Shown here: piece after piece, positions 6,369 to 61,708 of the stretch
How positions within the stretch are numbered: position 1 is the first letter of the stretch
Layout: each line of letters begins with the position of its first letter
Assembly: GCA_017942005.1 (NCBI GenBank)
Contig: JAGAVJ010000005.1
Location: 1 to 64,000, forward strand
Direction of reading: 5' to 3'
Length of the DNA stretch: 64,000 nucleotides
Origin: Clostridia bacterium
Lineage (GTDB): Bacteria; Bacillota; Clostridia; Oscillospirales; CAG-272
Made by a program: the position numbers and the translations under genes
Notes under the pieces: model-generated
What the model saw: the letters and a program-made list of their open reading frames with translations, nothing else
Databases searched by the model: none
What the model was told of the DNA's origin: nothing

Positions 6369-6393
6369 ATAAACAATCAAACCTGATAAAAAA

Positions 6394-6600
6394 ACGTGAG
6401 TTCGATGAGGAGGTGCTTTTTGAAAAAAGCACCTCCTCAAACTCCTCCGCAAAAACTTTCATACAGAGAAACCCACAAATAATTGGGCAAATTATCTGCG
6501 CAAATTTTGCCTTATTTTTCTATATAAAGTTTTTTGAAAGGGATTCGGGGAAAACTTTTTTGAAAAAAAGTTTTCCCCGAGAATTCCATCGAACTTACGT
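6394..6600 (+). repeat. MITE-like composite palindromic element, full copy 1
   Basis: 207-bp element downstream of ftsH. Its ends are inverted repeats (ACGTGAGTTCGAT at 6394-6406; ATCGAACTTACGT at 6588-6600; 12 of 13 match). It contains two strong hairpins: one pairs GAGGAGGTGC with GCACCTCCTC around 6408-6439, the other pairs CGGGGAAAACTTTTT with its complement around 6546-6580. It is flanked by a perfect 7-bp direct repeat TAAAAAA (6387-6393 and 6601-6607). The inverse copy is at 58257-58471. Short open frames inside it are not genes. Confidence 0.75.
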
Positions 6601-6612
6601 TAAAAAACAAAA

Positions 6613-6646
6613 GGGCTGCTGCACTGTGCTGTGCAGCAGCTTTTTA
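6613..6646 (+). terminator. Rho-independent terminator (GCTGCTGC family)
   Basis: 10-bp stem GCTGCTGCAC / GTGCAGCAGC with a 6-base loop, followed by TTTTTAT on the plus strand. It follows the repeat after ftsH and faces the convergent gene at 6660. It belongs to a family of GGGCTGCTGCA hairpins used repeatedly in this window. Confidence 0.8.
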
Positions 6647-16308: not shown

Positions 16309-16315
16309 CCAATTT

Positions 16316-16386
16316 AAAGTTTTTTGAAAAGGGCATGGGGAAAATCTTTTTTTGGGGAAAAGTTTTCCCATATATCAAACGCACAT
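16316..16386 (+). repeat. Half-copy of the MITE-like element
   Basis: Starts AAAGTTTTTTGAAAAGGG and continues through the GGGGAAAA hairpin to an eroded end ATCAAACGCACAT. It matches the second half of the copy at 6394-6600. Confidence 0.6.
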
Positions 16387-27944: not shown

Positions 27945-27977
27945 GGGCTGCTGCAAGTTTTCAACTTGCAGCAGCCC
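27945..27977. terminator. Bidirectional terminator (GCTGCTGC family)
   Basis: 15-bp perfect stem GGGCTGCTGCAAGTT / AACTTGCAGCAGCCC with a 3-base loop, between the convergent HAD phosphatase and antiporter genes; the minus strand continues into a T-rich stretch. Confidence 0.75.
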
Positions 27978-27984
27978 GAAAACC

Positions 27985-28046
27985 AAGTTTTTGCGGTGGA
28001 GTTTGAGGAGGTGCTTTTTGAAAAAAGCACCTCCTCATCGAACTCT
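27985..28046 (-). repeat. Half-copy of the MITE-like element
   Basis: Matches the GAGGAGGTGC hairpin half of the full element, from AAGTTTTTGCGG to the terminal ATCGAACTCTC. It lies next to the terminator at 27945. Confidence 0.65.
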
Positions 28047-28088
28047 CTTTTTTTATGTTTTCCAGTTTGTATAACCGTCTATTGAAGC

Positions 28089-58195: not shown

Positions 58196-58256
58196 GTCTT
58201 TTTTAAAATTTTAGATGGAGATAAAAAATATCACAATCCATTTATATGTTAATAAC

Positions 58257-58471
58257 ACGTGAGTTCGATAGAATTCTCAGAGAAAACTTTTTTGAAAAAA
58301 GTTTTCCCCGAACCCCTTTCAAAAAACTTTATGCGGGAATATAAAACAAAATTTGCATGAATGATTTGTTCAATTTGAACCATACTATACAGTCTCTTCT
58401 GTTTGAAAGTTTTTGCGAAGGAGTTTGAGGAGGTGCTTTTTTCAAAAAGCATCTCCTCATCGAACTCACGT
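58257..58471 (-). repeat. MITE-like composite palindromic element, full copy 2 (inverted)
   Basis: 215-bp copy of the element at 6394-6600 in the opposite orientation, with near-perfect terminal inverted repeats (ACGTGAGTTCGAT at 58257-58269; ATCGAACTCACGT at 58459-58471). Both internal hairpins are kept; the central part differs most. A perfect 7-bp direct repeat TAATAAC flanks it (58250-58256 and 58472-58478). Confidence 0.8.
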
Positions 58472-58591
58472 TAATAACGCAACAACGAAAGGAAAGCGCA
58501 GAAGGTTTACACAATAAAACCTTCTGCGTCTATAATACAAAAAAAGCATAGCTGTATGAAAGCGCATACGTGCTTCGGGCTGCTGCAATGA

Positions 58592-61642: not shown

Positions 61643-61708
61643 AACGTTTTTGGGGAGGAGTTTGAGGCGGTGCTTTTAAAAAAAAGCATCTCCTCATGAA
61701 ACACACGT
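61643..61708 (-). repeat. Half-copy of the MITE-like element
   Basis: Runs from AACGTTTTTGGGGAGGAG through the GAGGCGGTGC hairpin to the end ATGAAACACACGT; the pairing arm is eroded compared with full copies. Confidence 0.6.

Follow-up and report, generated by a model that had tools for sequence, protein, structure and literature searches.

What is the short, repeat-bounded and non-coding stretch that lies downstream of an ftsH-like gene in this clostridial genome, and by what means did it come to reside there? A sequence-only reading of the window, which here denotes the whole 64-kb stretch of DNA analysed, had proposed a miniature inverted-repeat transposable element (MITE) carrying two hairpins, lacking a transposase and bounded on both sides by TAAAAAA; its location and each of these features are borne out by the sequence. 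The element, hereafter W1, spans 207 bp (6394..6600, + strand) as delimited by its terminal inverted repeats (TIRs) and by alignment to 34 other copies, and occupies the space between the ftsH-like gene (+) and a gene for an acidic protein (-). With a probability of about 93%, W1 is a non-autonomous MITE whose ends are recognised by transposases from a single IS982-family clade and which was moved in trans, leaving duplications of 7 bp, sometimes of 6 or 8.

Architecture of W1

The left TIR of W1 (ACGTGAGTTCGAT, 6394..6406, + strand) has the same letters as the ends of IS982-family elements, and the right TIR (ATCGAACTTACGT, 6588..6600, - strand; reverse complement ACGTAAGTTCGAT) agrees with it at 12 of 13 positions. 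The earlier description of 13-bp TIRs is thus right about the presence of the ends and has to be corrected for one mismatch on the right. Target-site duplications of TAAAAAA lie to the left (6387..6393) and to the right (6601..6607) of the element, a low-complexity motif that taken alone constitutes weak evidence. When W1 and one TAAAAAA are taken out, what is left is an ordinary short spacer with a terminator-like hairpin of its own at 6615-6640.

The interior of the element is devoid of transposase coding and is organised into two modules, each following a half-unit plan in which a lead, AAAGTTTTTTG, precedes a hairpin. The left module contains hairpin A (GAGGAGGTGC type, 16-bp stem, 6406..6439), and the right module hairpin B (GGGGAAAAC type, 17-bp stem, 6545..6580). 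Folded as single-stranded RNA, W1 closes back on itself over its whole length, at -86.1 kcal/mol compared with -39.5 +/- 4.1 for shuffled sequences (z = -11).

Copies, duplications and placement

A second copy, anticipated at 58257 in inverted orientation, is indeed present. W2 (58257..58471, - strand, 215 bp) has perfect 13-bp TIRs, is flanked by TAATAAC on the left (58250..58256) and right (58472..58478), and is 81.5% identical to W1 over its own length. Fragments accompany these two copies in the window: a solo half-unit consisting of lead, hairpin A and a decayed TIR (11/13) with no partner half (27985..28049, - strand), a decayed half-unit, 85% identical, with one end only (61643..61708, - strand), and a solo decayed right module of the hairpin B type (16312..16369, + strand). 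At two mismatches or fewer, the 13-mer matches the window six times, against 1.65 expected. A separate recurrent hairpin, GGGCTGCTGCAAGTTTTCAACTTGCAGCAGCCC, is found close to gene 3' ends at 27945-27977 of the window and at several other loci (e.g., L095 and L106), and a related hairpin, GGGCTGTTGCAAG..., is also present inside some MITEs.

Throughout the organism's own genome (G000), the 13-mer end occurs 157 times with at most one mismatch, compared with 0 for the reversed control, confirming the repeats by the genome-wide search that the sequence-only reading had suggested. BLAST recovered 40 full or partial copies of W1. Copy counts combine searches with fetched stretches, and the fetched stretches alone yielded 63 paired elements, a lower bound, under a pairing rule of two ends lying 40-400 bp apart with no more than four mismatches summed. 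Most of these are 170-230 bp in length, and a few, of 93-109 bp, carry a single hairpin module.

The earlier proposal had been staked on flanking repeats being present at other copies, and they are: 30 of the 63 paired elements have exact ones (19 of 7 bp, 6 of 6 bp and 5 of 8 bp; mode 7), whereas across 2000 re-pairings of left and right flanks among the elements, exact 6-8 bp repeats averaged 1.4 and never exceeded 6. We read the lack of an exact duplication at the other 33 as decay, mis-pairing or other events. The exact 7-mers begin with T in 17 of 19 cases and end with A in 18, and at one locus (L106), where one element has inserted next to another, TATTTTA is repeated at each boundary.

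The copies are intergenic and situated mostly at the 3' ends of genes. According to a simple ORF-based gene model, the neighbouring gene pairs are convergent at 21 elements, tandem at 20 and divergent at 6, with 16 not classifiable; the gene calls being crude, this distribution is no more than a hint that the elements either avoid promoters or favour gene 3' ends as targets. No similar DNA was found in phage and plasmid collections. A 14-mer scan of viral contigs returned 120 contigs, about as many as chance would give, as roughly estimated from the size of the collection. One plausible element lies among the retrievable contigs, a possible 129-bp one in IMGVR_UViG_2671181164_000006 (L212, 440-568), with TA-rich flanks, one exact 13-bp end and another with three mismatches.

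Empty sites within the genus

The site orthologous to that of W1 was located through the convergent neighbour of the ftsH-like gene, the same gene pair being sought in congeners. In three of them (G008, G004 and G002), the short spacer 3' of the ftsH-like gene is present and empty, containing neither the element nor its ends, in a comparison that is between species and not between strains. This is the outcome expected of a mobile element, in contrast to the shared orthologous positions in distant relatives that the sequence-only reading had named as evidence against it. In the rest of the genus, eight genomes, the only exact 13-bp end is a lone match in G008. Given the empty sites and the near-absence of exact ends, the insertions are therefore lineage-specific.

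These observations bear directly on the view that the repeats are vertically inherited bidirectional terminators or RNA elements, for which the strong fold of W1 and the bias toward gene 3' ends can be adduced. Such an origin is refuted by the absence of W1 from the orthologous place in the three congeners and by the target duplications, and is extremely improbable; moreover, neither hairpin of W1 adjoins a T-run, a terminator scan reported neither, and the Rfam matches comprise two tRNAs only. As intrinsic terminators, the W1 hairpins were accordingly rejected, the native terminator being the separate downstream hairpin. A secondary role of the hairpins at transcript ends is possible.

IS982-family elements with the same ends

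If W1 is a MITE, which transposase moved it? In the own genome, whose assembly is 88% complete, there is no match to the IS982 transposase (PF13612), and the W1-type copies for this reason look orphaned. Between unpaired ends, where long TIR-bounded elements were sought, only decayed MITEs were encountered and no transposase was seen. Nor does G000 contain a DDE_Tnp_1 match, and it was this search that led to an IS982 element in another genome, G266.

Other genera of the family (G085, G203, G266, G118 and G238) also carry this 13-mer in abundance; there it bounds elements with 7-bp duplications (e.g., TTATTTA, TAATATA and TGATTTA) and with cores unrelated to that of W1; such unrelated cores between the same ends have been found in two other genera. 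G266 harbours both MITEs and a 1031-bp element that shares the 13-bp ends and whose transposase is broken; the part of its frame left intact hits Pfam DDE_Tnp_1_3 (1e-46) and the IS982 equivalog of NCBIfam (176.8 bits against a cut-off of 130). In named genomes, proteins related to this one include some that are encoded in elements of ~1-1.13 kb, bounded on either side by the exact 13-mer and flanked by exact 7-bp repeats, and the IS982-family elements with the 13-mer at both ends have reading frames of 306-322 aa. Those of Pseudobacteroides cellulosolvens are flanked by TAAAATA, TAATTTA and TATTATA, and that of a spirochaete MAG (313 aa frame) by TAATGTA; a copy in a Ruminococcus MAG is flanked by TTTTACA and has one mismatch in its right end. 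The insertion sequence with matching ends that the sequence-only reading had urged us to look for thus exists, as a clade of IS982-family elements of ~1 kb that shares with the MITE its 13-bp ends, 7-bp duplications and TA-rich targets.

Several further observations concern these ends. In G203, a 213-bp element brings together the left end and the 3' part of an IS982 element of this kind; it is a nascent internal deletion derivative and shows the birth of non-autonomous forms. In G118, identical TIR-bounded sequence and the 3' ends of IS982 elements break off where contigs end (L115, L130 and L136, together with C4 and C36 at L289 and L290), a hint that the assembly was broken by recent activity in multiple copies. 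G266 also contains a 46-bp sequence (C23; L261 246-291) with two 13-bp ends ~20 bp apart, and G238 a similar one of 58 bp (L135 1456-1513), both with no clear target duplication.

The features of the family as published, namely ends of the form AC(N)6T... and direct repeats of varying length, IS1187 having one of 7 bp (PMC7335449), fit W1 in that its ends, ACGTGAGTT..., start with 5'-AC and carry T at position 9, in that its repeat is 7 bp, and in that the autonomous relatives found here, ~1 kb long, match the IS982 equivalog model. In contrast to the family, W1 lacks a transposase, lacks IS982 sequence past the 13-bp ends, and lacks the published TT that follows the conserved T (positions 15-16). 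It is not classed as an IS982 insertion sequence, as it encodes no transposase. Since its likeness to IS982 elements stops after the TIR, descent by simple internal deletion of such an element appears unsupported, the 13-bp ends being all that the two sequences have in common.

Could a different transposase family, sharing the 13-bp end and the 7-bp duplication by chance, have moved the MITE? In its favour, G000 has no transposase of the kind sought, the part common to W1 and IS982 elements is confined to the ends, and the families searched there besides IS982 were Pfam DDE_Tnp_1 and Y1_Tnp. A coincidence of this kind is nonetheless highly improbable, considering the 13/13 identity at both IS982 ends, the equal duplication length, the equal target preference, and the presence in G266 of MITEs together with such an IS982 element. 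An IS982-family enzyme is, to judge from the shared ends, most likely the mover of W1. The transposase of one clade would recognise the 13-bp ends and would mobilise W1 in trans, duplicating 7 bp (sometimes 6 or 8 bp) of TA-rich, T...TA targets; it would since have been lost from G000, or be missing there.

Origin of the hairpin core

At least ten right-module matches in G000 lack an intact adjacent 13-mer; of ten such free modules, eight have nothing end-like at up to three mismatches within the fetched stretches, and the other two (L394 and L395), which have decayed ends, are worn MITEs. At another locus (L402), an inverted module pair lacks ends altogether, and the GGGGAAAAC hairpin has been swapped for a GGGCTGTTGCAAG hairpin in an otherwise typical element. 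The modules also occur in related genomes without the 13-mer (G002, G007 and G025). Because modules exist free of ends and hairpins are exchangeable, the core of W1 is built from resident palindromic repeats rather than from IS982 sequence, making the element a composite. Its body probably formed when a pre-existing pair of hairpin modules, inverted relative to each other, became flanked by ends of the IS982 type. Alternatively, two half-elements may have joined, or the free modules may be worn MITEs. As to the head-to-head joining of half-units that had been suggested earlier, modules do exist alone, as do one-module elements of 93-109 bp, which lends the idea partial support and would fit joining and loss alike.

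Modules of this sort invite comparison with REP/BIMEs (PMC2817692), which are likewise intergenic palindromes, single or in inverted pairs, and numerous in each genome. It could be argued that W1 and its kin are palindromes of this type, spread by a RAYT or by duplication, with the 13-mers merely part of the palindrome: modules are found free of ends both in G000 and in related genera, they sometimes form BIME-like inverted pairs (L402), and weak Y1_Tnp matches of RAYT-like size exist in some relatives. For the TIR-bounded elements this is refuted by the exact duplications at 30 of the 63. Their ends are of the DDE-transposase type, identical ends enclose unrelated cores in two other genera, IS982 elements with these ends exist, and no association with a RAYT gene was seen. 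As an account of the whole family it is very unlikely, and for the free modules it is possible. With a RAYT or Y1_Tnp protein as the putative mover of the free modules, a correlation would be expected, and Y1_Tnp does not track module abundance: it is missing from G025, the relative with the most module matches, and the one such gene in G000 is a strong full-domain match as in IS200/IS605, the weak RAYT-like matches being confined to some relatives.

Two other arrangements of modules were noted. On contig C32 of G000 (171857-172190; L399), three near-identical modules without TIRs stand in tandem at a spacing of ~137 bp. In MITEs of another genus, from G085 (L263-L266 and L271), the core is unrelated save for one lead-plus-hairpin module close to one end.

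Discussion

W1 is short and non-coding, has TIRs and a target-site duplication, is dispersed in many copies, is missing from empty sites in congeners, and has an autonomous partner in other genomes, all of which characterise MITEs; an autonomous partner in the same genome, typical of MITEs and not required of them, was not found in G000. The ends, the duplications, the copy number, the empty sites and the presence elsewhere of IS982 elements sharing these ends and duplications are direct observations, and jointly they uphold the MITE assignment from which this analysis set out.

IS982-derived MITEs are already known, as exemplified by MITECca01 of Cardinium (PMC9769881), which at ~240 bp also lacks a transposase and matches an IS982-family parent at its ends. 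That element retains short subterminal parent sequence and coexists with its intact parent, whereas W1 shares only the ends, has no parent found in G000, and possesses a core made of hairpin modules that also occur without ends. W1 stands out for this core, modular and unrelated to the parent, and for ends that have been put to use again in several genera. A broader notion is that a single 13-bp end, recognised by an IS982 clade of wide distribution, has time and again captured resident palindromic repeats that differ from genus to genus, with swappable modules; the family would then be a general shuttle for hairpins between genes and not a set of insertion-sequence deletion derivatives. This notion is tentative and on balance doubtful.

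By way of an exact 13-bp key, the findings tie the abundant, unannotated intergenic repeats of this bacterial family to a specific family of transposases, so that their origin can be put to a direct test. Across at least three genera these ends enclose different cores, and W1 represents a MITE family in which the core consists of resident hairpin repeats and not of the remnants of a parent.
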